A DNA stretch of 64,000 nt from Cyclobacteriaceae bacterium. GTDB lineage: Bacteria > Bacteroidota > Bacteroidia > Cytophagales > Cyclobacteriaceae. Below the pieces are notes generated by a model, which made no database searches, had not been told where the DNA came from, and saw nothing but the letters and a program-made list of their open reading frames with translations. Location of the stretch: contig JAHCHY010000002.1 in assembly GCA_026129485.1 (NCBI GenBank), positions 1 to 64,000 on the forward strand, read 5' to 3'. Of this stretch, positions 5,170 to 35,219 are shown one piece after another. The translations under genes and the position numbers were made by a program. Every line of letters begins with the position of its first letter. Position 1 is the first letter of the stretch.

Positions 5170-5217
5170 CAAAAGTATGCTCTTAATGAAAGCGACAAAT
5201 CACCCTTAAATGATGAA
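5170..5217 (-). promoter_or_regulatory. 19-bp operator variant plus promoter of the small RNA
   Basis: In promoter orientation the operator reads TTCATCATTTAAGGGTGAT (5217-5199). The proximal half GGGTGAT is perfect and the distal half is degenerate. Its proximal end is exactly 21 nt from the -7 box TACTTTTG (5177-5170), the same geometry as the other sites in this block. A TTG directly abuts the operator, so this promoter may be less dependent on an activator. Confidence 0.5.
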
Positions 5218-5421
5218 AGTTCCTTTAAAAACCATTTAAGGAAACAGAATACTACCCCGCTTACGGTATTGATCTCTATGCCAGAGTCCCCATGTGTTCA
5301 GCATCAGCATGCCTCACTTATTCTTATCTGAAACATGTAATTCAGTAAATGCCAGCACGCTTCCATACCGGGAAAAAAACCCAAGGCATAACAAAAGAAA
5401 TAACTGAAAAGACTTGCGTGC
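5218..5421. other. Intergenic, no gene seen
   Basis: Stretch between the small-RNA promoter and the 3' end of the lipoprotein gene at 5422. No open frame or motif was recognised. It may be the 3' untranslated part of the lipoprotein transcript, which would end at the 5069-5093 terminator. Confidence 0.4.
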
Positions 5422-5727
5422 CTATGGAATTAATGTAGCGAGCTTGTTGCCTTGCCGATCCACCTGATAGGCATACAGGATTGACTTACTATAACCAATC
5501 CATATCTCTGAATCATCCTGCAAAGGGTAAACATAAATATGGATGCCACTGCCAATATCCCGCGCGGGTTCGCCAAAAGTTTTGACCAACTGGCTGTACG
5601 TCATGTCCTGATGCAGCAATGACTTGAAGCTTTCAAATGTTGGTTCATGAATGCTTTTTTCTTCTGTGCAGGAATATAAAGAAATGAGCAGACAAAAAAG
5701 AAAGAATAGCTTCGCTGGATTTTTCAT
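5422..5727 (-). CDS. Small lipoprotein with BamE/SmpA-like fold
   Basis: 101 residues. A signal peptide ends in a lipobox (LYSC, Cys20), so the product should be an acylated envelope protein. The rest (LLHQDMTYSQLVKTFGEPARD, then YVYPLQDDSEIWIGY) resembles the BamE/SmpA/BLIP-like pattern of a helical 'GMTyaqVvkllGkP' segment followed by beta strands. The function is not known; such proteins often assist envelope assembly or bind other proteins. The -7 box TAATTTTG ends only 4 nt before the ATG at 5727, so the mRNA is predicted to be leaderless or nearly so. It belongs to the operator-controlled set. Confidence 0.75.
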   Translation of the reverse strand: MKNPAKLFFLFCLLISLYSCTEEKSIHEPTFESFKSLLHQDMTYSQLVKTFGEPARDIGSGIHIYVYPLQDDSEIWIGYSKSILYAYQVDRQGNKLATLIP

Positions 5728-5731
5728 GCAT

Positions 5732-5779
5732 CAAAATTATACGCGAAAGACATTACTTAAATCACTCATTACAGGTGAT
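5732..5779 (-). promoter_or_regulatory. 19-bp operator and -7 box, lipoprotein gene
   Basis: Operator ATCACCTGTAATGAGTGAT in promoter orientation (5779-5761), 21 nt, then a perfect TAATTTTG (5739-5732). It lies between divergent genes. In the plus direction toward 5866 only a weak CAATCTTG (5800-5807) is seen at 20 nt, so the main target is probably the lipoprotein gene, with a possible second effect on the 5866 gene. Confidence 0.6.
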
Positions 5780-5865
5780 GTATTTGAATATTCTAAAGTC
5801 AATCTTGTGAATCGGCTACGGCTATCATTATTTACATTGTTCGTTACATCTTTTGAATCTTAATT

Positions 5866-6717: not shown

Positions 6718-6783
6718 AACAACAATCCTTTTGCCTGGTTAGGCATCATCCATAAGCAAATCAAAGGAACACGATATTCCCCC

Positions 6784-6830
6784 ATCGCCCGAAAAGGGTG
6801 ATTAAATATTTAAGCTCATTGCTTAGTTTG
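6784..6830 (+). promoter_or_regulatory. 19-bp operator and -7 box, amidohydrolase operon
   Basis: Operator ATCGCCCGAAAAGGGTGAT (6784-6802), one of the most symmetrical copies, followed after 20 nt by TTAGTTTG (6823-6830; at 21 nt the reading is TAGTTTG). The coding start is at 6854, giving a leader of about 20 nt. No TTG lies at the -33 position. Confidence 0.6.
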
Positions 6831-6853
6831 CTTTATTAACTACCTGTTACTAT

Positions 6854-8272
6854 ATGCGTACACATCATAATTTTTTCGCGCTTATCATTCTTATAGCCCT
6901 TTCGTCCGGTTCTGCTGCTGCACAGAACAGGTATGCCATCAAAAATGTATCGGTTATCCCGATGAACCGGGAAGTAGTTCTGAGCAATCAGACTGTACTG
7001 ATCGAAGACGGTATCATTAAGAACATCGGAAATTCCGGTAAGGTAAAAATCGGGAAAGATTACAAAGTCATTGACGGAACAGGCAAATACTTAATGCCCG
7101 GCCTGTTTGATATGCACACGCATTTTTTCTACGAGCATGGAAAACACGTTAACACCAATGAAACCGAGCTGAAGCTGATGCTGGCAAACGGTATCACTAT
7201 GGCACGTATCATGACCGGGCATCCCTCCTACCTCGAAGCGCGCGAAAATGTGAAGACCGGGAAATGGATCGGGCCTGAACTGAAAGTAGCCTGCCCGCAA
7301 TTAGTGGGGAGATGGCCGTGGTCGCCTGATTTTAAAAACTATGAGATTGTTGCGTCTGCTGAAAAGGCAACCAAAGCTGTAAAGGAGTTTAAAGAGCAGG
7401 GCTACGATGCCATCAAGATCACGTTCATGATGGCGAGCGAAATATTTGATGCCGTTGTAAAGGCGGCTGCCGAAGAAAATATTAAAGTTGTGGGCCATGT
7501 AGGGCCTATCGTAAAACTGCCCAAAGCGCTGGCGGCCAAACAACAGATTGAGCACATGGATATGTTTATCGAGATGTTGCTGCCTGATACAAGCTACAAT
7601 CACGGGCAAAGCGTATCGGATTTTAATATTTACAGCAAAGCGGCCTGGGCTACCGTGCCTCACTTAGATGAGTCAAAAATTCCTGCATTAGCGAAAAGCG
7701 TAAAAGACGCGGGCATTTATGTAACGCCTACCAATTACTTTTTCATTACTAATGCAGGCTTGCCATTTACCGATGAGGAAATAAAACAAAAACCAGACTA
7801 CAATTACCTGCCATCTGATTCAAAAGAAGAGAAATGGAAATACCGCAACAGCTATTTGAAAAATATGGCTCCATTAGAGAGTCGGGAAAAATATGTTCAC
7901 ATCAGGAAGAAGATGGTGTATGAGTTATGGAAGGCCGGAGTGCCGTTAATGGCGGGGTCAGACGCTCCTGAATTTTTTGTGGTCGCGGGATTCTCTATTC
8001 ACGATGAACTGAAAACAATGGTAGATGCCGGGCTTACACCCTTTGCTGCGTTGCAAACCGCAACAGTAAATCCTGCAACCTTCATGGAAATGAATACAAG
8101 AACGGGAACGATTGAAGCGGGCAAAGAAGCAGACTTCCTGTTGTTGGATAAAAATCCGTTGGAGGATATTCAAAACACCCGTGCAATACACGGTGTATTT
8201 ACGAATTCGGGCTGGTACGACAATGATGCCGTGAATAATTTATTACAGCAGGCATTGGTTCTTGGGCAATAG
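6854..8272 (+). CDS. Secreted amidohydrolase-family enzyme (imidazolonepropionase/prolidase-like)
   Basis: 472 residues with a signal peptide (to about residue 24), a short beta-sandwich (IKNVSVIPMNRE ... VLIEDGIIKNIG), then a metal-dependent TIM barrel: HTH metal motif in FDMHTHF (His88, His90), IKITF lysine region, GHVG and EHMD histidines, and MAGSDAPE carrying the catalytic Asp. The C terminus has the usual G.I..GKEADFLLLD.NPL.DI. All metal and catalytic positions appear present. Members cleave amide bonds in dipeptides, imidazolone rings or similar; the substrate cannot be read from sequence. It shares an operator-controlled promoter with the propeller gene 43 nt downstream. Confidence 0.88.
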   Translation: MRTHHNFFALIILIALSSGSAAAQNRYAIKNVSVIPMNREVVLSNQTVLIEDGIIKNIGNSGKVKIGKDYKVIDGTGKYLMPGLFDMHTHFFYEHGKHVNTNETELKLMLANGITMARIMTGHPSYLEARENVKTGKWIGPELKVACPQLVGRWPWSPDFKNYEIVASAEKATKAVKEFKEQGYDAIKITFMMASEIFDAVVKAAAEENIKVVGHVGPIVKLPKALAAKQQIEHMDMFIEMLLPDTSYNHGQSVSDFNIYSKAAWATVPHLDESKIPALAKSVKDAGIYVTPTNYFFITNAGLPFTDEEIKQKPDYNYLPSDSKEEKWKYRNSYLKNMAPLESREKYVHIRKKMVYELWKAGVPLMAGSDAPEFFVVAGFSIHDELKTMVDAGLTPFAALQTATVNPATFMEMNTRTGTIEAGKEADFLLLDKNPLEDIQNTRAIHGVFTNSGWYDNDAVNNLLQQALVLGQ

Positions 8273-8315
8273 CCGTACACACGAAAGGTAAGTCATGTAA
8301 CCAATATCCAATACT

Positions 8316-9326: not shown

Positions 9327-9356
9327 TCCATTTTGTGTTCATTCTTTACAATACTC

Positions 9357-9779
9357 TCAATCTTCAAATTCCGTTATTGCCTTTTTGCTGAAAACTACCG
9401 TTACGAAGTCGCGGGGTTTTAACTCGTTCAGGAGCTTGGGGCCGCCCCGTGCGACTTCCCGGATAATGGGCATGAAGTTTTCCTCTTTTGCCTTGTACTG
9501 GATAGAGTCGCTGTATTCTGTTATCAGCACGATGTGAAAGTCCGCCAAAGAGTCGGCCTGCGTACGGAGCAGCTTAAATGATTTGATATATCCTTTTTCG
9601 AGCGCCCGTTGCCTGAAAACTTTCCAGTTGTTTTCATAGTAAAACATGGCTTCCGCTGTTTTACCGTTTTTTATCCTGACAAAATCAATATCGGAAACAG
9701 GTTTCGGCTGTTGCGCGATGGCATATTCTCCGCATGAAAAAATCAAAGTCAGTGCAAGCAGGGTAATTTTAGTTTTCAT
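9357..9779 (-). CDS. Small secreted or lipid-anchored protein of unknown function
   Basis: About 140 residues from the ATG at 9779. The frame is open further upstream, but this start yields a normal signal (KTKITLLALTLIFSCGEYAIAQ). Both a weak lipobox (FSC) and a signal-peptidase-I site (AIAQ) are possible. The mature part is mixed alpha/beta with no family I can name; a dimeric alpha/beta-barrel is possible but unproven. It lies about 90 nt downstream of the M61 peptidase gene on the same strand and is probably the second gene of that transcript. Confidence 0.65.
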   Translation of the reverse strand: MKTKITLLALTLIFSCGEYAIAQQPKPVSDIDFVRIKNGKTAEAMFYYENNWKVFRQRALEKGYIKSFKLLRTQADSLADFHIVLITEYSDSIQYKAKEENFMPIIREVARGGPKLLNELKPRDFVTVVFSKKAITEFED

Positions 9780-9872: not shown

Positions 9873-11777
9873 TTACTCAGCCGTCAGCCATGCCTTTCTT
9901 ACAAGCAATTTTTCGGGAGAAATGTCGTCATCAAAGCTTAATATGTGATGCTCTACTATATCAATGGTAATCACTTTTGCTTTCAATTCCAAAGGCTGTA
10001 GTGCTCCCGCACTATCCTTTCTTAATATTGAATACGAAAGAGTTTCCCCTTCGTGCAAGCCCTGCGCTGCTTTATCAAAAAACTCCCCTATGCCAGGGCC
10101 GAGGTCCGGTATGGCTTTACCGTTAATGCTTATCAGCACATCCCCCACTTTTAATCCAAGTAATTTTCCCTGTTCCGTCAGCCCATTGGTATTGCTGACC
10201 ATGAGTTTCTTCTTTCCGTCAACTTCCGTTACACCTATTGCAGCGGGGCCGAAACCTATGTTAAGTTCGTAGTTAGGTTTTTCGGCCTCATAGTTAACTC
10301 CAACTGCTTCAAAGACTTCGCTGAAGGGAAGTCTTTTTGTTCCGTCAATGTATGACCTGAGAAAATCCCCAATCTCCGGGTATGTCAGTTGTTCGATTTT
10401 TCCAAACAGCTCGTCATCATCAAATGCCTGATCTTTGCCGTATTCCTTAGCCAGATCAGCCATCAAATCCTGCAATCCGTATTTACCGTTTGAAAGGGTT
10501 CTCAATTTTATATCGAGGCACATGCCGATCAACGCGCCTTTTTGATACACATTATAATACTGGTCAGAATATTTATCGAGGGTATATTTGCTTATATCGG
10601 TGAAGGGCACATCGTCAAGGAACTGGTCGGCTACGAGCATTTTCTGTCTTATCATCCCTAAGTATTGATCGGGTGTAATCAATCCATACTTTACCTGCAC
10701 ATTTCCGGCAAAATATTCGGTTACGCCTTCATACATCCAGAGGTGCTTTGACATTTCCGGGTTATTAAACTCAAACCGGTGTATTTCCTTGGAGTGAATA
10801 TTCAAAGGGGTTACAATGTGAAAGAATTCATGCGCGGCAAAATCGCGTAGCTGCTGCTTCATGGCGTCAATCGTTCTTTCAGGCATATAATAAAAGGAAG
10901 AATACCAATGCTCCAGCGCACCATAGGCATTAATGGGCTTGTCGGTGAAATAAAATATAAAGGCATACTTGTCAACCGGCAGCTTCCCTCCCAGGTATTT
11001 GGATTGGGCCACCAGCACTTCCCGGATCGTGCCTGCAATTTCCTTTGCGTTGATCTTGCCGGTTGGCGAATAGGAACCTATCAAAACTTCTGTATTGGCA
11101 ACGCGGATAATGGCCGTATCGGGTTCCGCATACATCAATGGCGAATCAATAAGCCGGTCGTAGTTTTCAACATAGTAGCGGTCAATGCGCTTGTGTTCGT
11201 TTTGCGGTGCTATTTCTTTTTTCACTTTGGGAAGCTGCGCACCGGCTTCTGTGGGGATAAGCCCGGTTGAGCCGTAATGATCGCGCGAACGGATTACTTC
11301 GAGCTGTACCGGCAAATCTTTGTTGTTTTCAAAATACCCGAAAAAACCACTGGTGTTGATCACAAAGTTTTTGCCTTCCTCAATATTCGTGGCAGCCATC
11401 GGATAAATGTGCGGTCCTTCTGTTTCAGCATCGAGGATGTCTTCAACCCAATACGTGATCTTATTTAGCCTAGATGCATTTTTAATTTTCCAGCCGTTTG
11501 CATTTACCTTTTCTACTTCCAGTCTTCTCCCCTTTTGATCGAACGCTGCGAGGTCGTGAATAAACCGGCCATAGTCGGCTACCGCATAGGTGCCGGGGAT
11601 GATCTTGGGCAGGTAAAAGACTGTTTCATGTTCTGTAATTTTTGGCGCTTTTAATTCTACAAAAACCCTATCATCAACCACGCGGGTGAGGTCTATTGAG
11701 TAATGGTAACCCGGTTGAGCCTGTGATGCTGTGATGAGCAGCACCATAAAGGCTGCAATTAAAATTTCCCGTTTCAT
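9873..11777 (-). CDS. M61-family metallopeptidase (glycyl aminopeptidase type) with PDZ domain
   Basis: 634 residues, signal peptide to about 20. An N-terminal beta-rich domain precedes a thermolysin-like catalytic domain with the zinc motif HEFFH (316-320) and downstream Glu in WMYEGVTEYFAG (Glu350), as in M61 peptidases. A PDZ domain occupies about 505-610 (GFGPAAIGVTEVDGKKKLMVSNTNGLTEQGKLLGLKVGDVL region). M61 enzymes remove N-terminal residues, preferring glycine/alanine, from peptides in the periplasm. The zinc ligands are intact. Its promoter carries the 19-bp operator, placing a peptide-degrading enzyme in the regulon. Confidence 0.92.
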   Translation of the reverse strand: MKREILIAAFMVLLITASQAQPGYHYSIDLTRVVDDRVFVELKAPKITEHETVFYLPKIIPGTYAVADYGRFIHDLAAFDQKGRRLEVEKVNANGWKIKNASRLNKITYWVEDILDAETEGPHIYPMAATNIEEGKNFVINTSGFFGYFENNKDLPVQLEVIRSRDHYGSTGLIPTEAGAQLPKVKKEIAPQNEHKRIDRYYVENYDRLIDSPLMYAEPDTAIIRVANTEVLIGSYSPTGKINAKEIAGTIREVLVAQSKYLGGKLPVDKYAFIFYFTDKPINAYGALEHWYSSFYYMPERTIDAMKQQLRDFAAHEFFHIVTPLNIHSKEIHRFEFNNPEMSKHLWMYEGVTEYFAGNVQVKYGLITPDQYLGMIRQKMLVADQFLDDVPFTDISKYTLDKYSDQYYNVYQKGALIGMCLDIKLRTLSNGKYGLQDLMADLAKEYGKDQAFDDDELFGKIEQLTYPEIGDFLRSYIDGTKRLPFSEVFEAVGVNYEAEKPNYELNIGFGPAAIGVTEVDGKKKLMVSNTNGLTEQGKLLGLKVGDVLISINGKAIPDLGPGIGEFFDKAAQGLHEGETLSYSILRKDSAGALQPLELKAKVITIDIVEHHILSFDDDISPEKLLVRKAWLTAE

Positions 11778-11795: not shown

Positions 11796-11843
11796 GAAAA
11801 ATAGAAATGCAATAGATTACCGGAATCACCCGGAACAGGTGAT
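11796..11843 (-). promoter_or_regulatory. 19-bp operator and -7 box, M61 peptidase gene
   Basis: Operator ATCACCTGTTCCGGGTGAT in promoter orientation (11843-11825), exactly 21 nt, then TATTTTTC (11803-11796; the final G of TAnnTTTG is replaced by C). Start codon at 11777. The outer 6 bp on each side are perfectly symmetrical. Confidence 0.6.
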
Positions 11844-13236: not shown

Positions 13237-14697
13237 TTAATCAACATCCCACCACACTCTTACATTCGGAAGAACAACCGGGCTAAAATTAGGGTTACGC
13301 TGCACTTCCTGGTCAATGTACTGTGCCCGCTTGGGTCTTGTTCCATCAATACCCACAGCGTTTAAATGCTCGGGGAAATCGGGATAACCTGTCCTCCTGT
13401 AATCATGCCATGCTTCCAGTCCATTGCCTGTTTGGGCGATATACTTTTGGGTAATGATCTGCTCTATTTGTTCTTCCGTAGTTCCGGTCAAGGCGTGGTC
13501 TGCAATATACGTGTCGATATCCCCTTCAGGCACTCCGGCCTCTGTCATGGAAGCGGTAATACCTTCCTCATAAAGATCCTGGGCTGTCTTCCCCGGAACC
13601 GTAACTCCCAGCGACAGCACCGCCTCGGCCAGCCAGAATGCACGTTGTGCATTTGTGATCAGCCGTACCGGGCCAACTCCCGATGCCCCGGTAATGACCG
13701 TACTCCATTTTGATCTGTTGGCAGCGGGAGCCAACGTACCGGCAAAACCGTTCGGATAGGTTACAAAACTTCCGGTGGGCTTGGTTACGAACAGATCCAG
13801 GCGGGGGTCATTTAATCCTTCCAGCAGGCTCACATAATTTGAGCTTACCATCATGTCGTTCTGGAAAGTGCTGATGTACGTCCATGTATAAATCGGGCTT
13901 TGACTGCCAACAGAAGATCCAAATTTTACCGATAAATTCTGACTGTTTTCAACGATGTAGTTATTAGCTGAAATTACTTCGTTGATTATGGTTACAGCCA
14001 GGGCCGGCTCTACATTGCTGATTTGCATCGCCAGCTTAAGCAACAGGGTATAACCTGCCCTTCTCCAGCTTGCAATTGTACCCCCGTAAACCACATCCTC
14101 AACTCCCGGGTTTATAGTCGAGGTAGTGTTCAGATCTGCCAGGCCCTCTCTCACCAGGTCAAACAGGCTTTGAATTTCCAACCCTGCATTTCCCTTGTAT
14201 ATATCCTCCTGCTTGTCTATTCGCGGCTGAGGGTACGTAGCACCCTGTAGCGCCTGGGAATATGGTATATCTCCCCAAACATCCGTTGTAAGACTAAAAA
14301 CATAGGCTTTCATAATTTTGGCAATCCCCGTATAGGACGTACCCCCAACCGGCTCGGCAGCCTCGATCAGCTTTTGGAAAGTGTTCAGTGCACCGCCATA
14401 AATTTCAAAGCGCCACTGGTTGTTAAAAGCAGCACCGTCTATATTATAAATATCATAGGCACCAGGGTTGTTTCCGGCCCCGTAAGTATAATCCATAACA
14501 GTAGAACCGAAACGATTAAGCTCATTGCCATTGGCAAATGCGGATGCAATTAATGCAGAGGGCAGCAAAACTGAAGGTGGAACCTGTTCCGGTAAATTCG
14601 GGCTCTGGTTAACATCTAAAAATTCATTACAGCTTCCCATAATTACAAGCAGGGGAAGTATGAATATTGATTTGTATAATAGTCTGATTTTTTTCAT
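13237..14697 (-). CDS. SusD/RagB-family outer-membrane lipoprotein
   Basis: 486 residues. Lipobox MGSC (Cys23) anchors it at the surface. Early motifs (NEFLDVNQSPNLPEQVPPSVLLPSALIASAFA) and the TPR-like region (AYVFSLTTDVWGDIPYSQAL) match the SusD-like group that lacks the starch-SusD N terminus (PF12771 type). The C-terminal part contains the AFWLAEAVL and GNGLEAWHDYRRTGYP blocks typical of this group. It should form the lid of the SusC transporter. Ligand preference is unknown; this subgroup is linked to non-starch substrates, including peptides in RagAB-like systems. It lies 18 nt downstream of susC. Confidence 0.92.
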   Translation of the reverse strand: MKKIRLLYKSIFILPLLVIMGSCNEFLDVNQSPNLPEQVPPSVLLPSALIASAFANGNELNRFGSTVMDYTYGAGNNPGAYDIYNIDGAAFNNQWRFEIYGGALNTFQKLIEAAEPVGGTSYTGIAKIMKAYVFSLTTDVWGDIPYSQALQGATYPQPRIDKQEDIYKGNAGLEIQSLFDLVREGLADLNTTSTINPGVEDVVYGGTIASWRRAGYTLLLKLAMQISNVEPALAVTIINEVISANNYIVENSQNLSVKFGSSVGSQSPIYTWTYISTFQNDMMVSSNYVSLLEGLNDPRLDLFVTKPTGSFVTYPNGFAGTLAPAANRSKWSTVITGASGVGPVRLITNAQRAFWLAEAVLSLGVTVPGKTAQDLYEEGITASMTEAGVPEGDIDTYIADHALTGTTEEQIEQIITQKYIAQTGNGLEAWHDYRRTGYPDFPEHLNAVGIDGTRPKRAQYIDQEVQRNPNFSPVVLPNVRVWWDVD

Positions 14698-17814: not shown

Positions 17815-17849
17815 AGAGTCTAAAGTTTTATTGAACATAATTCAGTCTT

Positions 17850-17897
17850 CAAAAGTGAAGAGTGAATCATTAAAATGAATCAGCCGAAAAAGGTTAT
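17850..17897 (-). promoter_or_regulatory. 19-bp operator and -7 box, susCD operon
   Basis: Operator ATAACCTTTTTCGGCTGAT in promoter orientation (17897-17879), 21 nt, then CACTTTTG (17857-17850). The same -7 octamer at the same distance recurs before the 32730-35141 permease gene. Confidence 0.55.
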
Positions 17898-18010: not shown

Positions 18011-18652
18011 TTAACGGGATATTATTTTCTCGCTTATGGCTTTTGATATTGCCGCAGATTTTTTATTCACGTGCAGCTTCTTGTAGATGTTCTTGGTGTG
18101 CGTTTTTGCCGTTTCTTTCGAGATACCCATTTCTTTCGCTATCTGGATGTACGTTTTTCCATGCGAAATATGATGAAGCACTTCTTTTTCGCGGTTGCTT
18201 AACGGGCTATGCAGGCTGGTGTGAAAATCATCCACCACCATACGCGCAATTTTAGAGCTCATGGGCGCCCCGCCCTTGCAGATTTCATCAAGGGCATTTA
18301 ACAATTCGAGGTAATTCGAGCTTTTTGAAATATAACCCGATGCCCCGTTTTTAAGGGATTCAAATACCAGCTCCGTATCCTCGTACACGCTCATGATCAC
18401 AATCTCCACATACGGAAGGATTTTTTTAATGGCGGCTGTTCCCTGAACACCATTCATACCGGGAAGCCCTATATCCATTAAAATAATATGGGGCAATATT
18501 TTCCTGATCTCTGCGATGCAATCTTCGCACGACTCGTATGCTCCCACAACATCGTATTGGCTTGAGCTGTTAATGATCAGCTTGTATGAATCCCGGATGT
18601 CAGGGTCATCTTCAACAACAACAATTCTCTTTTTCGTGATGGGCCTTGTCAT
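18011..18652 (-). CDS. NarL/FixJ-family response regulator (RR1)
   Basis: 213 residues: a receiver domain (1-125) with acidic pocket EDD (14-16), phospho-acceptor Asp60 (ILMDIGLPGMNG), the conserved Ser in IVIMSVYED and the Lys region GYISKSS. A LuxR-type HTH follows (about 148-213: LSNREKEVLHHISHGKTYIQIAKEMGISKETAKTH). It should act as a dimeric DNA-binding activator. Its own promoter has the 19-bp operator, so it may autoregulate and is the leading candidate to bind all copies. A second regulator and a sensor kinase lie directly upstream on the same strand. Confidence 0.93.
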   Translation of the reverse strand: MTRPITKKRIVVVEDDPDIRDSYKLIINSSSQYDVVGAYESCEDCIAEIRKILPHIILMDIGLPGMNGVQGTAAIKKILPYVEIVIMSVYEDTELVFESLKNGASGYISKSSNYLELLNALDEICKGGAPMSSKIARMVVDDFHTSLHSPLSNREKEVLHHISHGKTYIQIAKEMGISKETAKTHTKNIYKKLHVNKKSAAISKAISEKIISR

Positions 18653-18662: not shown

Positions 18663-18710
18663 CAAACGTACTCAGCCCTGTACGGCCATGCATCACTACA
18701 AAGGGGTGAT
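18663..18710 (-). promoter_or_regulatory. 19-bp operator and -7 box, response regulator RR1
   Basis: Operator ATCACCCCTTTGTAGTGAT in promoter orientation (18710-18692), exactly 21 nt, then a perfect TACGTTTG (18670-18663). Only 10 nt separate the -7 box from the start codon, so the leader is very short. No TTG stands at -33. Confidence 0.65.
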
Positions 18711-18716: not shown

Positions 18717-19355
18717 TTACACTAAATTATCTTTTCGCGCTTTTATCAACGCCTCGGATTTATTGGTTACGTGCAGCTTCTCGTAGATATGCCTGATGTG
18801 AGTTTTCACCGTATCCTTACTTATCGAGAGGTCTTTGGCAATATAATCGTACGTTACACCACGGGCGAGGCTTTTTAAAACATCTGTTTCCCGTTCCGTT
18901 AAAGGCGACTTCGGGTTTCTGTGAAAAGAATTGATGATCATGCTGGCAATCTTGGGGCTCATGGGCGCACCCCCGGTAAACACTTCATTAATGGCCGCAA
19001 TCAATTGATTGTGGTTGGCATCTTTGGTGATGTACCCCATGGCGCCCGCGCAAAAAGCATTGAACACATTTTCCGAATCATCATGCACGGTGAGCACGAT
19101 AATTTTTACAGCGCTCATTTTTCTTTTGATGTACGAAATGCCTTCCATACCGCTTATGCCGGGCAATGACAGATCCATAAGAACAAGATCAGGATTGTCT
19201 TTGGAAAGCCGTTTAATGGCTTCTTCGCACGAAGCATACGCGCCCACAACAATATAATCGGCAAGGCCGCGTATAATAATGTCGTAGGCCGAACGTAATT
19301 CATCATTGTCCTCTATAATAACTATTCTTCTCAAAGTTTCGTTGTAGTGCTTCAT
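18717..19355 (-). CDS. NarL/FixJ-family response regulator (RR2)
   Basis: 212 residues. The receiver domain has an acidic pocket (IIEDND, 14-18), Asp61 as phospho-acceptor (LVLMDLSLPGISG) and a conserved Lys (GYITKDA). The LuxR HTH is C-terminal (LTERETDVLKSLARGVTYDYIAKDLSISKDTVKTH). It is paralogous to RR1, though the recognition helices differ. The gene follows the kinase gene after 4 nt, so the two are translationally linked. It probably receives phosphate from that kinase. Whether RR1 or RR2 binds the operator cannot be decided from sequence. Confidence 0.93.
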   Translation of the reverse strand: MKHYNETLRRIVIIEDNDELRSAYDIIIRGLADYIVVGAYASCEEAIKRLSKDNPDLVLMDLSLPGISGMEGISYIKRKMSAVKIIVLTVHDDSENVFNAFCAGAMGYITKDANHNQLIAAINEVFTGGAPMSPKIASMIINSFHRNPKSPLTERETDVLKSLARGVTYDYIAKDLSISKDTVKTHIRHIYEKLHVTNKSEALIKARKDNLV

Positions 19356-19359: not shown

Positions 19360-22269
19360 TCAAAGTTTTATAACAAGCTGTATCATCGTTCCCCCGCCCG
19401 GCCTGTCCAGCATTTCTACTTTGCCCCCGATCTTGGCCGCCCGTACACGCATGTTGCGCATCCCGTTTCCCGGTTGTGCCTGATGAATGCCAATTCCGTC
19501 ATCTTCAAAAGTCAATACAAAACCATCCTGGATTTTAGAAACATTAAAATACACATTGCCTGCCCGTGCGTGCTTTAATGAATTGGTCATAGCCTCTTTA
19601 AATATTAATATCAGATGCCGGTTGTGCCCTTCATTCATGGCAATATCAAAATCTAACGACAGTATTTCTGATGACACATGAAAATTAATCCCATTCTTTT
19701 CAAAGTAGTTAGCGCCAAAATCCCGCAAATACGAAATAGCCTCTTTCAGGTTATTGGATTTCACATCAATTGACCAGATAAAATCTTTTGTGCCGTGAAA
19801 AATAGCATGGGCCGTGCGTTCAAAAAAATCGAAGACTGCATAAAACTCACCGGAAGGATGCTTGTTTTTCAGCAAGCTGGCCTGGGTAAGCATGCTGGCC
19901 AGCCTGTTCCCCATTTCGTCATGAAAATCCATGGCCATTTGTTTCTTTAAACGCATCGACTCGGCCATGCGCACCTGTTCTTTTAGTCTTAATTTTCGAA
20001 TACGCATAACCGTTGCAACATAAAACGCAGCGATGATCAGCACAACAACGAGAAGCGACATCGCAATAAAAAAAGCAGTAGTCTGCCAGAAAGCCGGGGC
20101 AATGGTAAACGAATAGGTTGTCATGCTGCCCCATACTTTGTTTTCGCTCACGGCCTGCACCATAAATGTATAGCTTCCCGGGGGGAGGTTGGAATATATA
20201 ACTTCCTGCGGGGTCCCCACACCCGACCAGCCTGTTTCCAATCCTTCCAGCTTATGATGAAAAGAAATATTATAAGGATTTGAAAGGTTTGAAGCGGAAA
20301 ATGAAAACGCAATGCTGTTCTCGTTATGCTTCAGCATGAGATTAACCGGCAGTCTGAAATACCCTTCCACATTATCACTATCTGTTATTTCTTTTGTTCT
20401 TACCTGCACGCCTGTTAAATAGGCGACAGGCGAAGAAACATCCTGGTGTTCGGCAGCAGGATTATACCGGTAAGCCCCGTTCACCGTTCCGATAATAATT
20501 TCCCCGTTGCTTCTCTTTATAACTGCATTAACATAAAGCTCCTCGCCTCCGTACCCATCCACTTTTTCATATTTCTTTACCGACTTCAATACTTTATTTT
20601 CAATATGAAGCTGGTAAAGTCCGTCATTAGATCCCACCAGCCACTTCTCAGGAGTGATCCACTCCACCAGCAAAATATTTGAAAGGACAGAAGACAGGTC
20701 AAGACTTGCAGTCTGCCGGAAGGCTTCATCAAAAAACAGGATATGCGGGAACTCTCCAAAAACAATATACCCGTTGCCGGGGTATTGCTTAATGCCATAT
20801 ACGGTTGAGGTTTTCAGAAAATCCGGTCCTACCTGTACAACACTATCCCCTGCCAGCTTCATAATCCCGCCCGCTGCTCCTGCTGTTCTGAAATAAACGG
20901 TATCGTTTATAACAACCGGGTTGCTGACACCCGGCATTCTTACCAACTGACGTGTGTGTAAATTCCCGGCTCCTTTATCTTTCAAAAGGTATAGCCCGTT
21001 AGGCGCTCCTGCCAGGATTGAGTTGCCCCATACACCTACCCCGTGAACAGAAAGTGCAGTGCCTGCATCCGGGAAAATGCGCTGCGGCCTGCCGTCTGTG
21101 ATCCTGAACAATCCTTCTTTTAATGTGCCCACAAAAATCTCATGCTTACTACGCGCCAACAGGGAAGTAACAGGCTTGCCAACCAATAACGGCTTTCCGT
21201 ATCCCAAAATGCCGCCATTAAAAGTTCCATATAAAACAGAGCCGTCTGCGGGGTTTTGCAGTATTGCTGTTATGTCGTTGTTTACTGTTTCGGGTATTAA
21301 TCGCCAGGGTTGTTTCCTGAACTTGCTGATGCCTTTTACATCAATGGAAAACCAGACGCCTTTTTCCGTATCGTTGAACAGGCATAGCGCATCATTGCTG
21401 AACAGCTCGTAATCATCCGAAATCCATTGCCGTTTTTTATGGTTGTCTATAACGAAAACTTTTCCGGCCGACAGTACCCATACCTGGCCGTCAGGGTCGA
21501 TGGCCATCTGGTTAATTTTCGTGGGCTTTTCTTCGATAAGTAACGTATCCAGCTTTTTCGTATGAAGATCATATCCGTAAATAGCGGATAGACCTGCTAT
21601 CAAATAGTATGATCTGCCTGCATTTGTTACAAGCTGTATCTTGTCAGGATTGTTCCAGCCGGTTTCTTCTTTGCTGATTGTTCCGTCAGCACTTACCGAA
21701 ACAACCGAATTGGTATGTGAATACACGCAAAGCGATTGCTGTTCATTGAAAAAGAAACCCGCAGACTTTGAACCTAACGCAGTATGAATATCTTCACGGA
21801 TAGTCAGCGTGTCGTTTGTTAATGTAAATACATCTCCTTTCGCATCCAGTACCCACGGAGTGTTGTTTTTATCTAAGACAAGCTTAGTATTGATGCCTAA
21901 GCGCAAATCGCCTTTACCAGGGATTACCCTGGAGTCTTCCCCGTTAAAATATACCAGCCCCACGTTGGTGAGCACCCAAATGTTATTGCCTACGTCAGGC
22001 TGAACCTTGAACGTAAAAAGCGATCCTGCAAAACCGGGGATAGTTATTTTATACTCAAAAAACTGCCGGCCGTCAAACCGGTAGATGGAGCGTGTTGCTG
22101 TTCCCAGCCATAAATTTGCGTTCCTGTCCTGTGCAATATCCAAAACCTGCGAATGCCGCAATCCTTCGTTCTGACCAAAGCGGATAAATGAAAAATCCTG
22201 GGCCTTACCCGGAAACCAGGATAAGAGCAAAACTGCAAGCATTACCGCTAACGTGTACCTGGACTTCAT
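19360..22269 (-). CDS. Propeller/Y_Y_Y sensor histidine kinase
   Basis: 969 residues. A signal peptide (to about 23) leads to a large periplasmic sensor of beta-propeller repeats (NANLWLGTATRSIYRFDG-type) ending in a Y_Y_Y Ig-like domain (about 640-725: NPYNISFHHKLEGLETGW). One membrane helix lies at about 733-756. The cytoplasmic part is a HisKA_3 dimerisation helix with phospho-acceptor His783 (DFHDEMGNRLASML) and a HATPase_c domain (N-box KEAMTNSLKHA, G-box DDGIG). There is no receiver or AraC domain, so it is a classical kinase for the adjacent NarL-type regulators. The large sensor implies a periplasmic ligand, perhaps one imported by SusCD. Confidence 0.93.
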   Translation of the reverse strand: MKSRYTLAVMLAVLLLSWFPGKAQDFSFIRFGQNEGLRHSQVLDIAQDRNANLWLGTATRSIYRFDGRQFFEYKITIPGFAGSLFTFKVQPDVGNNIWVLTNVGLVYFNGEDSRVIPGKGDLRLGINTKLVLDKNNTPWVLDAKGDVFTLTNDTLTIREDIHTALGSKSAGFFFNEQQSLCVYSHTNSVVSVSADGTISKEETGWNNPDKIQLVTNAGRSYYLIAGLSAIYGYDLHTKKLDTLLIEEKPTKINQMAIDPDGQVWVLSAGKVFVIDNHKKRQWISDDYELFSNDALCLFNDTEKGVWFSIDVKGISKFRKQPWRLIPETVNNDITAILQNPADGSVLYGTFNGGILGYGKPLLVGKPVTSLLARSKHEIFVGTLKEGLFRITDGRPQRIFPDAGTALSVHGVGVWGNSILAGAPNGLYLLKDKGAGNLHTRQLVRMPGVSNPVVINDTVYFRTAGAAGGIMKLAGDSVVQVGPDFLKTSTVYGIKQYPGNGYIVFGEFPHILFFDEAFRQTASLDLSSVLSNILLVEWITPEKWLVGSNDGLYQLHIENKVLKSVKKYEKVDGYGGEELYVNAVIKRSNGEIIIGTVNGAYRYNPAAEHQDVSSPVAYLTGVQVRTKEITDSDNVEGYFRLPVNLMLKHNENSIAFSFSASNLSNPYNISFHHKLEGLETGWSGVGTPQEVIYSNLPPGSYTFMVQAVSENKVWGSMTTYSFTIAPAFWQTTAFFIAMSLLVVVLIIAAFYVATVMRIRKLRLKEQVRMAESMRLKKQMAMDFHDEMGNRLASMLTQASLLKNKHPSGEFYAVFDFFERTAHAIFHGTKDFIWSIDVKSNNLKEAISYLRDFGANYFEKNGINFHVSSEILSLDFDIAMNEGHNRHLILIFKEAMTNSLKHARAGNVYFNVSKIQDGFVLTFEDDGIGIHQAQPGNGMRNMRVRAAKIGGKVEMLDRPGGGTMIQLVIKL

Positions 22270-27391: not shown

Positions 27392-27410
27392 ATAACCCTT
27401 TTCGGGTGAT
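27392..27410. promoter_or_regulatory. 19-bp operator between divergent protease and ABC-exporter genes
   Basis: Plus strand ATAACCCTTTTCGGGTGAT; minus strand ATCACCCGAAAAGGGTTAT. It is one of the closest copies to the consensus. Unlike the other copies, no TAnnTTTG box is found at 20-21 nt on either side. It is 74 nt from the ABC ATPase start (27485) and 104 nt from the protease start (27287), so it could serve either or both. Confidence 0.5.
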
Positions 27411-27484: not shown

Positions 27485-28402
27485 ATGGAAAACATCATCT
27501 CAATCCAAAATCTCAATTTTGCTTATTCGTCAAAAAAGATACTCGACAATTTGTCAATACACGTGCCACGCAATTCCATTTATGGGTTTCTGGGCCCAAA
27601 TGGTTCAGGGAAAACTACTACAATTCGGCTTATGCTCGGTCTGATCCCCCATAGAAGTGATAACATCAATCTTTTTAACAAATCACTGAAGCGTTATCGT
27701 ACAGCAATTTTACAAAATATTGGATCTCTTGTTGAAGCTCCTTCCTTGTACCCTCACCTCTCAGGGTATGAGAATCTTGAATTGACACGTAAGCTGATTG
27801 GCAATATAACAAAAACGAAAATTGATGAAGTGCTTGAAATTGTAAAATTGAATCATGACGCTCATGTTCCAACCAAAAAGTATTCATTAGGCATGAAGCA
27901 ACGGCTGGGGCTGGCCATTGCCTTATTAAATAATCCGGACGTTCTGATCCTGGACGAGCCTACTAATGGACTTGACCCTACCGGCATTAAGGAAATGCGC
28001 GAGTTCATCGTTGATCTTCACCGGCATCATAATAAAACTATATTCCTATCCAGCCATCTGTTAGGTGAAATTGAAAAGATGGCCACTCATGTAGGGATTC
28101 TAAAAACAGGTAAATGCGTTTTTGAGGGCGCGCTCAATGAACTTGAAGCTTTGCTACACAAGAATATCATTCGATTTAAAGTTGACAACGCTGCGGTGGC
28201 GGAGCAAATTATTAACAACCGTATGCCCTCTATTAAAACTTCGATAGAGGCAAGTTGGCTTACACTCCATGTTGATGATGATCTTATTATTTCTTCTGCC
28301 AACAAACTTCTGATTAATCAGGGCATTTCGGTATCCCGTATAGAGCATAAAGCAAGTAATCTTGAATCACTATTTATAGAATTAACTGAGCAAGCACTAT
28401 GA
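27485..28402 (+). CDS. ABC transporter ATP-binding protein (BcrA/LanF-like)
   Basis: 305 residues: one ABC ATPase domain with Walker A GPNGSGKTTT (about 36-45), Q-loop region, signature YSLGMKQRLGLA, Walker B VLILDEPTNGLDP and switch His (FLSSH). The extra C-terminal domain of about 90 residues resembles the bacitracin/lantibiotic-immunity ATPases (BcrA, LanF, EcsA). It should energise the membrane protein encoded by the next gene (4-nt ATGA overlap). Drug or peptide efflux or immunity is the likely role, inferred from family resemblance. Confidence 0.92.
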   Translation: MENIISIQNLNFAYSSKKILDNLSIHVPRNSIYGFLGPNGSGKTTTIRLMLGLIPHRSDNINLFNKSLKRYRTAILQNIGSLVEAPSLYPHLSGYENLELTRKLIGNITKTKIDEVLEIVKLNHDAHVPTKKYSLGMKQRLGLAIALLNNPDVLILDEPTNGLDPTGIKEMREFIVDLHRHHNKTIFLSSHLLGEIEKMATHVGILKTGKCVFEGALNELEALLHKNIIRFKVDNAAVAEQIINNRMPSIKTSIEASWLTLHVDDDLIISSANKLLINQGISVSRIEHKASNLESLFIELTEQAL

Positions 28403-30734: not shown

Positions 30735-32507
30735 TTATTTTTTGTAAAAGATTTCCTGACCGTCATTACACCTGATGGAAGTCTTGCCATCTGAAGATTT
30801 CATAAAGTCAAGGGTTGTGGCTTTATCTGAAAAAAAATTGTAGGAAGTAAAGCTGTCAACGCCTGTTCGGGCAAACCGCAAATTAATTCTTGATTCGAGA
30901 TCGGCTGTGGCAAAATCAAGTGTAATATTATCGTCAGCATTCAGCAGCCACATGGAGAAATAGCTTACCGTCCTTTTTTCATACTCCAGCCGCGCAGCGC
31001 AAATCCAGAAATTCGGGTCGCGGGCATCCGGAAACGTACCCTGAATGTGATAGTTTCTTAATTGTCCGAATTTTTCGGTCAGCATAGCACGCTCTTCGAT
31101 AAAGTCGCTGCGTCCGCGTTCGCTTAAAAACTCTTCCAGTCCGTGGGCAGTACCATTTTTATAATCATCCAGAATTTTTGACAACGACTTTTGGATTATG
31201 CTTATCTTATTTTTCTGCTCTTCCGTAAATCCGTACAAAAGGTTTACGGCATCTTCCCCGTCAGCTTCTATGACCAGGTTATTGCCCAGTATGGAAACCT
31301 CCAGCTTTGAATCATTATAATAATAAGCGCCTGCATACTTTTGAAGCTCATCCCGGCTGGTTTTCATAACAGCAGGCGGCATTGTTACCGGCTGTCCGTA
31401 AACCAGATTACGGATATTGCGATCCATAAACCAACGATCCCACGTACCGCCCGGCTGCTGGGCGTTGGAAACAAAGATATAGGTAAGGTTAATGTCCCTG
31501 AACATTCTGAACGTTGCATTAAACCCGCGTTCCGTGTCGCCTCCGTGGTCAATGACCGTATTGTTATCTGCGGGATTCTTATAATTAAAGAGTCCGTACC
31601 CATAATATGTATAGCCGTCATTTCCTGCCGGTATATGTTGGGCGAACATCAGCACAAGCTCTTTGCCCGGAAGTACCTTGCCTGCATGTAAAGCCCGCTC
31701 CCACATATACAAATCTGAAACTGTTGAACAAACAGATCCGCCACCCCACGTGCGCGGATTAAAATGCTGAGCTTTCGCGTTCCCGTTGTTTTTATTGCCC
31801 TGGTAGGCTGTTGCAACAGGTTTACCGAGGAGAAACGGGGTATTATTAACACCGGAGCTTGCCATTTTCAACGGCTTAAAAAAAGTATCGGTCAGGTATT
31901 GATCGTAAGTCTTGCCGGATTGTTTTTCAATGATGGCGGCTAGCAGGTTATAGCCTGCATTCGAGTAAATCCATTTAGCGCCCGGAGCTGTCCGTAACGG
32001 AGAAACCAAAATCCTCGACACCAAATCCGGCTTTGATATGTTTTCAAAATCAGCAGCCAGGTCGCCACCGCGTATGCCGGATGAATGTGTCAATAGCTGG
32101 TGAATGGTGATGGTATTTTTGTCGGGCGGTACGTTCTCAAAAAAATCTGAAATTTTATCGCTCACGCTGAGCTTTCCTTCCGACTGAAGCTTCAGGATAG
32201 CCGCAGCCGTAAACATTTTTGATACGGAGGCTATTTCAAAAATAGTATTCGGCTGTACCGGCTCCTGCGCTTCGCGGTTCGCATAGCCGTAGCTTAAATT
32301 AACCATCACTTCACTGTGCCGGGCTACCAATACTTGTCCTGCATTTCCATAAGCAGCTACAGACGCGATATATTTTTCTATGCTGTTGCGTACCTTCTTT
32401 ATATTAATCTCTCCTTGCGCCTGAAGGGGCTGGGATAACATAAGCAATAAACACGTTTGTGCGAAAATCTTTACACAAGGCACCGGGTGATTCAGATAAT
32501 GTTTCAT
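30735..32507 (-). CDS. Secreted serine hydrolase of the beta-lactamase/S12 family, with C-terminal lipocalin-like extension
   Basis: 590 residues. The signal peptide ends near residue 30 (LQAQ). The catalytic domain carries SVSK (94-97, Ser94 nucleophile), YSNAGYN and HGGDTERGF, so all three S12 motifs are present. About 190 residues of mostly beta structure follow (from about 390) and may bind substrate. With its downstream paralogue it forms a two-gene operon under a 19-bp operator. D-amino-acid peptide hydrolysis would fit the proteolytic theme of the neighbouring genes, but the substrate is unknown. Confidence 0.88.
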   Translation of the reverse strand: MKHYLNHPVPCVKIFAQTCLLLMLSQPLQAQGEINIKKVRNSIEKYIASVAAYGNAGQVLVARHSEVMVNLSYGYANREAQEPVQPNTIFEIASVSKMFTAAAILKLQSEGKLSVSDKISDFFENVPPDKNTITIHQLLTHSSGIRGGDLAADFENISKPDLVSRILVSPLRTAPGAKWIYSNAGYNLLAAIIEKQSGKTYDQYLTDTFFKPLKMASSGVNNTPFLLGKPVATAYQGNKNNGNAKAQHFNPRTWGGGSVCSTVSDLYMWERALHAGKVLPGKELVLMFAQHIPAGNDGYTYYGYGLFNYKNPADNNTVIDHGGDTERGFNATFRMFRDINLTYIFVSNAQQPGGTWDRWFMDRNIRNLVYGQPVTMPPAVMKTSRDELQKYAGAYYYNDSKLEVSILGNNLVIEADGEDAVNLLYGFTEEQKNKISIIQKSLSKILDDYKNGTAHGLEEFLSERGRSDFIEERAMLTEKFGQLRNYHIQGTFPDARDPNFWICAARLEYEKRTVSYFSMWLLNADDNITLDFATADLESRINLRFARTGVDSFTSYNFFSDKATTLDFMKSSDGKTSIRCNDGQEIFYKK

Positions 32508-32553
32508 ATATACGAAAGACTATTCAGCCAGGTGAATAGTTTTAATCATCACG

Positions 32554-32601
32554 CATAATTGAAAATTCAGAAGCAAATATTTATCAACCCTTTCAGGTGA
32601 T
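32554..32601 (-). promoter_or_regulatory. 19-bp operator and weak -7 box, serine hydrolase operon
   Basis: Operator ATCACCTGAAAGGGTTGAT in promoter orientation (32601-32583), 21 nt, then CAATTATG (32561-32554), which keeps four of the six defined bases of TAnnTTTG. Start codon at 32507. Confidence 0.5.
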
Positions 32602-32729
32602 TATATAACGGTGAAAAGCAACTGGCAAAAGAAAGTTACCAAAAGTCGGTGAGACTAAACCCCGGCAATGAAGGAGCAAAAAAGGCATTGAAGGCTATTG
32701 ATGGGTAAACTGTACTTGATAGTATTTCG

Positions 32730-35141
32730 TCATTCATTCTTTAATACAACAGCCGGATTCATCATACCTGCTTTTAATGTTTGGTACAGCACGGTAATGG
32801 CTGCAATAGCCGACACACATCCAAGCGCCACGAGAAACACCCAAAACTCTATTGCCACACGGTAAGCAAATTTCTCAAGCCAGTTATTGAATACAAAAAA
32901 CGCTATCGGTGAGGCCAACAAAAATGCTCCGGCTATCAGAAGCATAAATTCTTTGTAGATTAGAAGTGTGATGCCCGAAGCTGTTGAGCCAAGCACCTTG
33001 CGCACGGCAATTTCTTTCTTTCGTTTTTCTACCGTGTAGGATGCCAGCGCAAAAAGGCCAAGACAAGCAATGAAGATTGCCAACCCGCAAAACAGCGAAT
33101 ATATCTTTGCGAGTTTATCCTCTTCCGCATACGCCTTGTCAATGCCTTGATCTAAAAAATAATAGTTAAAGGAGGCTTCCGGGTAAACTTCTTTCCAGAT
33201 GCGTTCAATTTCTTCTACCTGGCTCGAATGATCCCCGTCTTTCAGCTTGATCGCCAGACTGGCAAAAAAGCCACCGAACTTAATCACCAGCGGACTTACC
33301 TCGCTTTGGAGCGGGTTAAAATTAAAATCTTCAATCACCCCGATCACCCGGTGGTTCGGGTTGGGATTCGCCCCGAACGTGAGCGCTTTATTTTCGGCAT
33401 CGTCCCATCCAAAGCTTTTGGCTGCCGATTCATTAATTATAAATGATAGTGCGCTGTCGCCTCTTGCATGAATATCAAAAAAACGTCCCTGCTTCATTTT
33501 TATGTTAAATGTTTCCAAAAAATCGAAACCTGTAAACAGTATAGGGAGCATAACTTCTTCATCTTTGCCTTCGCGTTTTACAGGATAAAAAGGTAAATTC
33601 TTTTGCCCCAGGTCGTGCGAAAGGCTGGTTACATTTTGTATGAAAGAGGCAGCCAGCAATTTATCTTTCAGCACAGGAAAGCGCGATACAGTGGGAATGC
33701 CGGGGTCGCTAATAACCAGGACTTGCTCCTTGTCAAAACCCATATCCTTGTTTCTCAGGTAGTGAAGCTGGCTCATCACAATGAATGTGCCCATGATGAG
33801 CACCAGCGAAACCGTGAACTGCAATACGACCAGCCACTTACGCAGGTTGAATTTGGATGCTGGCGCCTGAACGCTTCCTTTCAGCACCAAAGCAGGCTTC
33901 ATCCCCGAAAGCACAACAGCGGGATAAAACCCGGAAATAGTTCCCACTAATACGAACAACACAAAAATCCTGGTTATACCTGTCAGAGAAAATACTTCAG
34001 CAAGCGTAAGGCTGGCATTTGCCAGCGAATTGAAAGACGGCAAAAGCACAATCACCAGGATAACAGAAACAAACCCAGCCAAAAAAGTAATTACGGTTGC
34101 TTCGCTGATGAACTGGCCAATGAGTTGTTTTCTCTCCGCCCCGATTGCCTTGCGGATACCTACTTCCTTTGATCTCGACAAATACCGTGAAGTGGCCAGG
34201 TTAATAAAATTGAAGCAGGCCACTCCCAGCACACATATACCCACTATGCCGAGCACATACACATAAGCAATGTTTCCTGGTGCGGAAATATCGCCAGCTA
34301 TCATATCGGTTGATTTCAAATGAATGTCACCTATTGCCTGCAACTCCAACCTTCCGTTGTTATCCTTATAGCGTTGCGTATAATGCCTGTTGGAAAAATC
34401 CTTCAGCTTTGCCTGAAGCCCTGCCGCATCCTTTCCATCGCGCAACCGGATATACCCGTAATGCCACATGAGCACATAGGCATTCTCCAAATCAATATCG
34501 GGCGGGATAGACAGACGGATAATGTTACGGGCGTTGGTTAAAAAATCAAATTGCAGGTGTGTGTTAAATGTCGGTTTCTTAAGCACACCGGTTACGGTAA
34601 GACTGATTGTGTCGTTATATAAAAGAGATTTACCTGTCGGGTCAGCATCACCAAAATAACGTATGGCAGTTTCTTCTGTCAAAACCACTGAATAAGGATC
34701 AGATAAAGCAGTTTCGATGCTTCCGTATTTGAACTCGTAAGGAAAAAATTCAAAAAAAGTTGAGTCGGTAACAAAGAACCTGTTCTCTGAAAATACAATT
34801 TCATCCTTTTTTATTTTTGGCGGATTGGCGCCAAAAATTGTGGGGGTGAACAGGCGAAGGCATTTCTCCACTTCGGGGTATTCCACCAGCATACCGGCCG
34901 GTGCCGGAAAATGCGTGAGCGGGTAATGATTGGGCGCACCATTCACATCCAAGTACGTGGTGATCCTGAAGATGCGGTCTGCATCGGGGAAACTTTTTTC
35001 ATAGCTCAACTCTTTCTGGTTGAAGGAAATGACGATGATAAAACACCCCAGCCCGATAGCGAGACCGAGGATGTTGATTACAGTATATGCTGCATTTCTG
35101 GTAAGACTCCTTACGGCTACCTTAAAGTAATTTTTAATCAT
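32730..35141 (-). CDS. Large FtsX/MacB-type ABC permease (duplicated form)
   Basis: 803 residues, paralogous to the 22302-24758 product. It has a helix at about 18-42, a MacB-type periplasmic domain, a helix cluster with coupling motif SKEVGIRKAIGAERK, a second periplasmic domain, and a C-terminal cluster with KKEIAVRKVLGS. No ATPase gene is adjacent, so it must borrow one or act as a mechanotransmission-type membrane protein. Single-gene transcript under its own 19-bp operator. Related pairs in Bacteroidota are often next to NarL-type regulators and peptidases; a role in peptide or antibiotic export is inferred. Confidence 0.88.
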   Translation of the reverse strand: MIKNYFKVAVRSLTRNAAYTVINILGLAIGLGCFIIVISFNQKELSYEKSFPDADRIFRITTYLDVNGAPNHYPLTHFPAPAGMLVEYPEVEKCLRLFTPTIFGANPPKIKKDEIVFSENRFFVTDSTFFEFFPYEFKYGSIETALSDPYSVVLTEETAIRYFGDADPTGKSLLYNDTISLTVTGVLKKPTFNTHLQFDFLTNARNIIRLSIPPDIDLENAYVLMWHYGYIRLRDGKDAAGLQAKLKDFSNRHYTQRYKDNNGRLELQAIGDIHLKSTDMIAGDISAPGNIAYVYVLGIVGICVLGVACFNFINLATSRYLSRSKEVGIRKAIGAERKQLIGQFISEATVITFLAGFVSVILVIVLLPSFNSLANASLTLAEVFSLTGITRIFVLFVLVGTISGFYPAVVLSGMKPALVLKGSVQAPASKFNLRKWLVVLQFTVSLVLIMGTFIVMSQLHYLRNKDMGFDKEQVLVISDPGIPTVSRFPVLKDKLLAASFIQNVTSLSHDLGQKNLPFYPVKREGKDEEVMLPILFTGFDFLETFNIKMKQGRFFDIHARGDSALSFIINESAAKSFGWDDAENKALTFGANPNPNHRVIGVIEDFNFNPLQSEVSPLVIKFGGFFASLAIKLKDGDHSSQVEEIERIWKEVYPEASFNYYFLDQGIDKAYAEEDKLAKIYSLFCGLAIFIACLGLFALASYTVEKRKKEIAVRKVLGSTASGITLLIYKEFMLLIAGAFLLASPIAFFVFNNWLEKFAYRVAIEFWVFLVALGCVSAIAAITVLYQTLKAGMMNPAVVLKNE

Positions 35142-35171
35142 ACAGAAAAAGGGCTGCTAAAAACAAGCAGT

Positions 35172-35219
35172 CAAAAGTGATGTCATTTCCAGCCAAATGA
35201 ATCGCCCGGAAGGGGTGAT
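35172..35219 (-). promoter_or_regulatory. 19-bp operator and -7 box, permease gene
   Basis: Operator ATCACCCCTTCCGGGCGAT in promoter orientation (35219-35201), exactly 21 nt, then CACTTTTG (35179-35172), identical in sequence and spacing to the susCD site. This is the rightmost copy found. Confidence 0.6.

Follow-up and report, generated by a model that had tools for sequence, protein, structure and literature searches.

An inverted repeat at a fixed distance from the -7 box: a likely response-regulator operator in a Cyclobacteriaceae SusCD and peptidase island

The island, its operators and their promoter geometry

We analysed a stretch of 64,000 nucleotides (nt) from a Cyclobacteriaceae bacterium (contig JAHCHY010000002.1, positions 1 to 64,000; hereafter the window) that carries a 30-kb island of SusCD, peptidase and permease genes. 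A sequence-only reading of this DNA had described nine 19-bp inverted repeats as operators of a clustered regulon; for seven of them it placed a -7 box at a distance of exactly 21 nt, and for one at 20 nt. Using a pattern search for ATCACCC-N5-GGGTGAT, we recovered all nine dyads, with left ends at 5199, 5761, 6784, 11825, 17879, 18692, 27392, 32583 and 35201. At seven of them (5199, 5761, 11825, 17879, 18692, 32583 and 35201) a TAnnTTTG-like box lies 21 nt from the dyad, toward the downstream gene, and at site 6784 the gap is 20 nt, in agreement with that description. Site 27392 has no box at 20-22 nt in either direction. The promoters, the genes behind them and the regulators are arranged as follows.

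5062..5164, minus strand: candidate small RNA (sRNA) of ~100 nt with an intrinsic terminator at its end; homologues in genomes G138 (three copies) and G361
5170..5217, minus strand: operator (5199-5217), N21 and box TACTTTTG (5170-5177); before the small RNA
5732..5779, minus strand: operator, N21 and box TAATTTTG; before gene 5422-5727 for a small lipoprotein-like protein, whose ATG lies 4 nt past the box
6784..6830, plus strand: operator, N20 and box TTAGTTTG; before the amidohydrolase gene 6854-8272
11796..11843, minus strand: operator, N21 and box TATTTTTC; before the M61 peptidase gene 9873-11777
17850..17897, minus strand: operator, N21 and box CACTTTTG; before the genes for SusC (14716-17838) and SusD (13237-14697)
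18011..18652, minus strand: RR2, response regulator with receiver and GerE/LuxR helix-turn-helix (HTH) domains, from domain matches
18663..18710, minus strand: operator, N21 and box TACGTTTG; before RR2
18717..19355, minus strand: RR1, LuxR-type response regulator paralogous to RR2, from domain matches
19360..22269, minus strand: sensor kinase with Reg_prop, Y_Y_Y and HATPase_c domains, from domain matches; adjoins RR1/RR2
27392..27410, no strand: strong dyad without a box, between the zincin gene 24768-27287 (minus) and the ABC gene 27485-28402 (plus)
32554..32601, minus strand: operator, N21 and box CAATTATG; before the PF00144 serine hydrolase gene 30735-32507
35172..35219, minus strand: operator, N21 and box CACTTTTG; before the MacB/FtsX-type permease gene 32730-35141

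This gene content suggests a role in peptide handling, perhaps of antimicrobial peptides, and RR2 is probably autoregulated through the operator at 18663..18710. The dyad at 27392-27410, in the divergent zincin/ABC gap, is among the best dyads. The box of the lipoprotein-like gene ends 4 nt ahead of the ATG (5727-5739), which predicts a leaderless mRNA, and the true SusC start is probably at 17814 (MRKILLLIF) rather than at 17838.

RR1 and RR2 each contain a Response_reg receiver and a GerE HTH domain above the Pfam cut-offs, and none of the 25 NCBIfam families listed for each regulator reaches its cut-off. The solved full-length proteins closest to RR2 are VraR and NarL, and relatives of RR2 found in one contig search share at best 38% identity over most of the protein.

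Next to the geometry. Summed over the nine sites, the box score is 43 at a gap of 21 nt, compared with 29 at the next-best gap. The maximum over 45 gaps was 35 both among 20,000 shuffles and among 20,000 rotations. The Bacteroidota primary-sigma -7 box TAnnTTTG is present at eight of the nine sites (20 or 21 nt), in five of them with 1-2 mismatches. Searching the window for spacer-5 dyads with at most three mismatches gave the nine sites and one further dyad with three mismatches, which lies inside a gene at 36452. Dyads with spacers of 2-4 and 6-9 nt (3-6 of each in the window, none with 0-1 mismatch) were rejected as operators for want of strong matches.

A TTG near -33, the second element of a Bacteroidota promoter, was not found in seven of the eight window promoters or in 20 of 24 other promoters chosen by score; it is present in one and four, respectively. 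In the accessible part of one report (PMC9723704), the Bacteroidota -7 box spans -12 to -5. With the box so placed the dyad centre falls near -43, which fits the class II range of -41 to -44 beside the polymerase. The sequence-only reading had put the dyad in the place of the -33 TTG and spoken of activator-dependent promoters: the missing TTG agrees with the first part, and the geometry is that of a class-II-type activator, activation itself being an inference.

We then scanned the whole genome (4,075,102 bases) with the reversed pattern as control. All four dyads with at most one mismatch lie inside the window, as do 7 of the 13 with at most two, and the level reached with three (143, control 64) is largely noise. 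The composite of dyad, N21 and TAnnTTTG with at most three mismatches occurs six times in the genome, each time inside the window (control 0), and the six two-mismatch dyads outside lack a TAnnTTTG box at 21 nt, whichever flank is considered. The code is nearly exclusive to these 30 kb of the genome. When the looser pattern ATCnC-N9-GTGAT-N21-TAnnTTTG was allowed one mismatch, three matches fell in the window and two elsewhere (contigs C34 and C36); these two, at about the background rate, count against exclusivity.

The operator code in the genus and the order

In the genus (62 genomes), RR2 orthologues share 57-62% identity with RR2 and often adjoin kinase, zincin and permease genes. We found a variant operator, ATCCC-N9-GTGAT (once ATACC), in 9 of the 62 genomes, ahead of an RNA that we call R1; counted from the sequences, the gap to the box (TAnnTTTG or TAnnTTTA) is 21 nt in seven and 22 nt in two. 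These variants emerged from the shared ATCnC/GTGAT form rather than from the strict dyad, which, when allowed one mismatch, matched here and there in 24 other genomes, at most three times in each. The exact composite ATCnC-N9-GTGAT-N21-TAnnTTTG has seven matches in the genus, two in the window and five within ~0.5 kb behind an RR2 orthologue. One mismatch added 49 more, mostly background (56 in total, 14 in the reversed-pattern control). In a scan with a weight matrix built from the window sites only, the top three matches were loci already found by pattern; ranks four and five (in G028 and G033) were new, and the fifth score was reached in 2 of 20 Markov sets.

Across 390 genomes of the order, the exact composite occurs five times (two in the reversed-pattern control): two matches are those of the window, and three belong to family f5. 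Each of the latter precedes a susC 39% identical to the window SusC. Directly ahead of two of these sites lie genes for a kinase and for a regulator that shares 44% identity with RR2; the contig of the third starts 415 bases before the site, too close to reveal a regulator.

The sequence-only reading had proposed a weight-matrix scan of related genomes as a check. RR1-type regulators occur in 53 of the 390 genomes (E 1e-55 or better), with 66 matches listed; for 40 of these we took the surrounding 3-20 kb (730 kb in all). As controls served 40 stretches of genuine sequence, 791 kb in total, drawn from two of the same genomes. With a matrix trained on 17 sites of the window and the genus, the regulator stretches yielded 27 matches with a score of at least 18 (18 at 20 or more, 12 at 22 or more), distributed over 21 of the 40, and the control DNA no match at that score. 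In 2.92 Mb of Markov sequence it gave two, two and no matches at these three thresholds. By family, stretches with a match numbered 8/13 in f1, 3/5 in f5, 1/1 in f9, 1/1 in f10 and 8/10 in f11. The operator is thus associated with this regulator subfamily in five families, and the code is common to at least five of the eight sampled, a claim that stops short of the whole order.

The first open reading frame (ORF) behind the 27 matches encodes a relative of an island protein in 17 cases: of SusC in eight, of the kinase in six, of the response regulator in two and of the 250-amino-acid (aa) island protein in one. Eight others have first ORFs unlike island proteins and two have no ORF within 300 nt. 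Recognition helices, extracted from 38 of the 40 regulators, all read H-x-(K/R)-(N/H)-I-Y.

A dyad that owed nothing to training, ATCnCCC-N5-GGGnGAT with at most two mismatches, gave 124 oriented copies in the regulator stretches and 18 in the controls, about seven times denser, where a near-palindrome can count twice. Behind these dyads, a box follows after 21 nt in 20 cases and after 22 nt in 8, compared with a mean of 1.2 and a maximum of 5 at the other 33 gaps; the controls, which have few dyads, show none at 21 or 22 nt. The profile from the strict weight matrix is thin: 68 operators gave five boxes at 21 nt, three at 22 and four at 12. Together, the fixed spacing, the near-exclusivity, the missing TTG and the recurrence beside one regulator subfamily support a clustered 30-kb regulon with activator-type promoters. 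The sequence-only reading was right about sites and spacing, but it missed that the operator code is common to other families.

RNAs behind the operator

The sequence-only reading also missed that what follows site 5199 is a conserved RNA and not a protein gene: no ORF of at least 60 aa starts with ATG within 420 nt behind it, and a strong terminator lies ~100 nt past its promoter. The window RNA has a better predicted fold than every one of 200 shuffled versions (z -3.6). Among its homologues, that at L239 has, close behind its response regulator, an N21 operator that scores 17.2; those at L246:9483 and L245 have a degenerate operator at N21, read by eye, and both face their regulator gene; that at L246:19397 lacks one at this distance. 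All five copies carry the core GUAGAA..UCUUCAU..AAGUUUnGGUUAAU unchanged, and the terminator pairs show two-sided changes. A model built from them (R2) recovered its five building members in 86 sources and nothing else with E < 0.1. By DNA, the window RNA matched itself and three short stretches in the genus (E 3e-4 to 4e-4).

No Rfam family matches the window at its gathering score. The best sub-threshold match to the RNA, Phe_leader (38.2 bits, threshold 55, E 5e-5), was set aside as terminator likeness because no gene follows the RNA.

The core runs antisense to the start regions of susC genes, and its predicted pairing with the susC of contig C23 reaches -27.3 kcal/mol. Against 28 receptor starts, none of 200 shuffled cores reached its mean or best energy. 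Among 319 candidate ATG starts of its own genome the 11 best all belong to SusC/TonB receptors (baseline 52 of 319); they represent nine genes, one of which, L294, lies below the SusC family cut-off. When 265 kb of the genome was scanned at any position, the four best non-self sites were susC starts in one register. The complementarity in its own genome is thus non-random. The antisense 21-mer with at most three mismatches has three matches there beyond itself: one susC start, one start of another long ORF and one without an ORF. The island's own SusC start pairs more weakly (-17.0).

Other RNAs stand behind the same operator. R1 is a conserved, terminator-ended RNA of ~75 nt in nine genus genomes (L127-L135), with an invariant loop TCATGGGTGG and three base pairs with changes on both sides. 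It lies between the RR2 and zincin genes, with an extra gene intervening in G006 and G014. The R1 model found nine loci at E < 1e-17 and three weak matches (E 0.02-0.07); it does not recover the window RNA, and at the four R1 loci tested there was no Rfam match. A second short RNA (L243:13429, L244:6562 and L258:6048) has a hairpin-loop core, AGTAGAATCTTCTTCAAAA, that is identical in three genomes, and its loop AAAGUAGAAUCUUCUUCAAAA forms the antisense of a MKKILL-type start, UGAAGAAGAUUCUACUUU. A longer structured RNA, whose middle is highly conserved, occurs in two genera (L188:9700-9900 and L260:11280-11420). We regard the last two as leads. These three further RNA types, unlike one another, suggest that such RNAs have been recruited to the operator repeatedly.

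The window RNA may be one that represses other SusC transporters, as the FopS sRNAs do. FopS sRNAs of Bacteroides thetaiotaomicron, according to the accessible part of the report on them (PMC11697453), are terminator-ended, pair near the susC start codon and repress translation. The window RNA resembles them in its terminator; pairing at susC starts is predicted in its own genome, with little support in two others. It differs in that its genome yielded a single copy, which stands behind a response-regulator operator, and its sequence is different (FopS model RF04319: 16.2 bits, threshold 56, E 4.5). It could instead be an inert relic, a decayed inverted susC start joined to a terminator, whose complementarity comes from its origin and not from function. 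Its antisense strand does read like a susC start, target tests outside its own genome gave little, and one of the five copies lacks an operator at N21. Conservation of the core, two-sided changes in the terminator pairs and the occurrence of other short RNAs behind the same operator all argue the other way, and we consider a relic rather unlikely.

Proposed circuit, alternatives and known systems

We consider it likely that the dyad is a class-II-type operator for the LuxR/NarL-family regulator RR2, possibly also for RR1, and that it drives the island and the small RNA; RR2 is the best candidate for the operator-binding protein. The neighbouring Reg_prop/Y_Y_Y kinase would phosphorylate RR2 (possibly RR1), and a regulator dimer would bind the inverted repeat centred near -43, its promoter-side half GTGAT occupying the position at which the polymerase reads the -33 TTG. 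The bound regulator would then recruit polymerase to the -7 box 21 nt away, turning on the SusCD, peptidase and permease genes, RR2 itself and the small RNA behind site 5199. As an antisense image of a susC start, this RNA would probably block other SusC-type mRNAs while the island transporter is induced.

The same regulators might instead repress, excluding polymerase from near -43 until a signal relieves them. The sites do overlap the -33 region, and LuxR-type regulators can act as repressors. Nevertheless, a TTG near -33 is missing from most of these promoters (seven of eight in the window, 20 of 24 of the score-chosen others), and a fixed distance of 21-22 nt is expected for polymerase contact and is unnecessary for simple occlusion, which makes repression improbable. 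Equally, another DNA-binding protein might read the dyad, with the RR1 and RR2 genes as mere targets or neighbours, and the window does encode an HTH_3 protein (46688-47227) and a further RR2-like regulator (51800-52408). That the operator recurs beside one regulator subfamily, with 27 matches in 40 stretches and none in 791 kb of control, and that the recognition helices are alike, leaves this a slim prospect. Inverted repeats with 5-nt spacers could also be terminator or leader hairpins in RNA, a reading we rejected as very unlikely because dyads upstream of the -7 boxes at a fixed distance lie outside the predicted transcripts.

Several results weigh against the operator proposed here for RR2. 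RR1 and RR2 are indistinguishable as the binder. Dyads 5199 and 17879 have three mismatches each, and dyad 27392, strong as it is, lies outside the promoter rule. The genus variant operators are not among the 25 best matches of the window-only matrix. No match of at least 18 was found in 19 of the 40 regulator stretches, including all ten from families f16 (0/1), f19 (0/5) and f20 (0/4), where one f20 site scored 17.1; the 40 loci are also not independent, since several come from one genus. For the RNA, the own-genome target DNA was chosen largely for its susC genes. In G138 and G425 the best non-self pairing sites fall elsewhere than at susC starts, with off-start energies of -25.6 (~430 kb) and -27.2 (~420 kb), and pairing energy alone is no proof because comparable energies occur away from start codons. 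Three distinct susC-like starts in G138 gave -21.2, -16.3 and -15.3, and the sole one seen in G425 gave a poor -9.2. Because of the empty families and these chance-level pairings, we hold neither the operator nor the circuit that follows with greater confidence.

Tentatively, we propose a two-component circuit, present across several families, that would couple induction of one SusCD/peptidase locus to the silencing of competing SusC transporters. Bacteroidota carry many such transporters (21 above the family cut-off in this genome, and one fragment joined to its neighbour), and the finding bears on how some are shut while others are opened. If the circuit is real, the same operator drives a local transporter and an RNA that silences its competitors. 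It would also supply a type of regulator for SusC-repressing sRNAs; for the FopS genes, their report describes canonical promoters and, as to regulators, mentions only that an unknown one might enhance them (PMC11697453). Furthermore, a 19-bp site, 21 nt and a -7 box form a readable promoter code for a large regulator subfamily, and its regulons should therefore be predictable from sequence.

Activators of the LuxR type, the -7 box of Bacteroidota promoters and sRNAs that repress susC (FopS) are already known. Solved LuxR/NarL-family response regulators include VraR, NarL, DesR and DevR, some of which act as class II activators; RR1 and RR2 share their receiver and GerE domains, and the differences here are the 7-5-7 ATCACCC/GGGTGAT site and the 21 nt to a Bacteroidota -7 box. 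The enterobacterial sRNAs MicA, RybB and OmrA/B repress outer-membrane proteins and offer an analogy, a regulated sRNA that would lower outer-membrane transporters, although the RNAs, regulators and transporter class are unrelated to those here. The sensor domains of the hybrid two-component systems (HTCS) of Bacteroides resemble those of the kinase described here, and the putative two-component control of a SusCD locus is a further likeness. In the accessible part of one account, HTCS fuse the kinase to an AraC-type regulator, use direct-repeat motifs and control SusCD loci (PMC3878776). The present system falls outside that class, having separate kinase and regulator ORFs, a GerE (LuxR-type HTH) domain and an inverted repeat. 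The literature searched, in which most subscription papers lay outside reach, held no account of the operator, of its link to this regulator subfamily or of an operator-linked susC-antisense RNA.

Beyond the island, the regulator at 51800-52408 shares 34% identity with RR2 and lies outside the regulon, and an ORF of 2123 aa (37870-44241) lies near the gene of a Por_Secre_tail protein (35378-37387).

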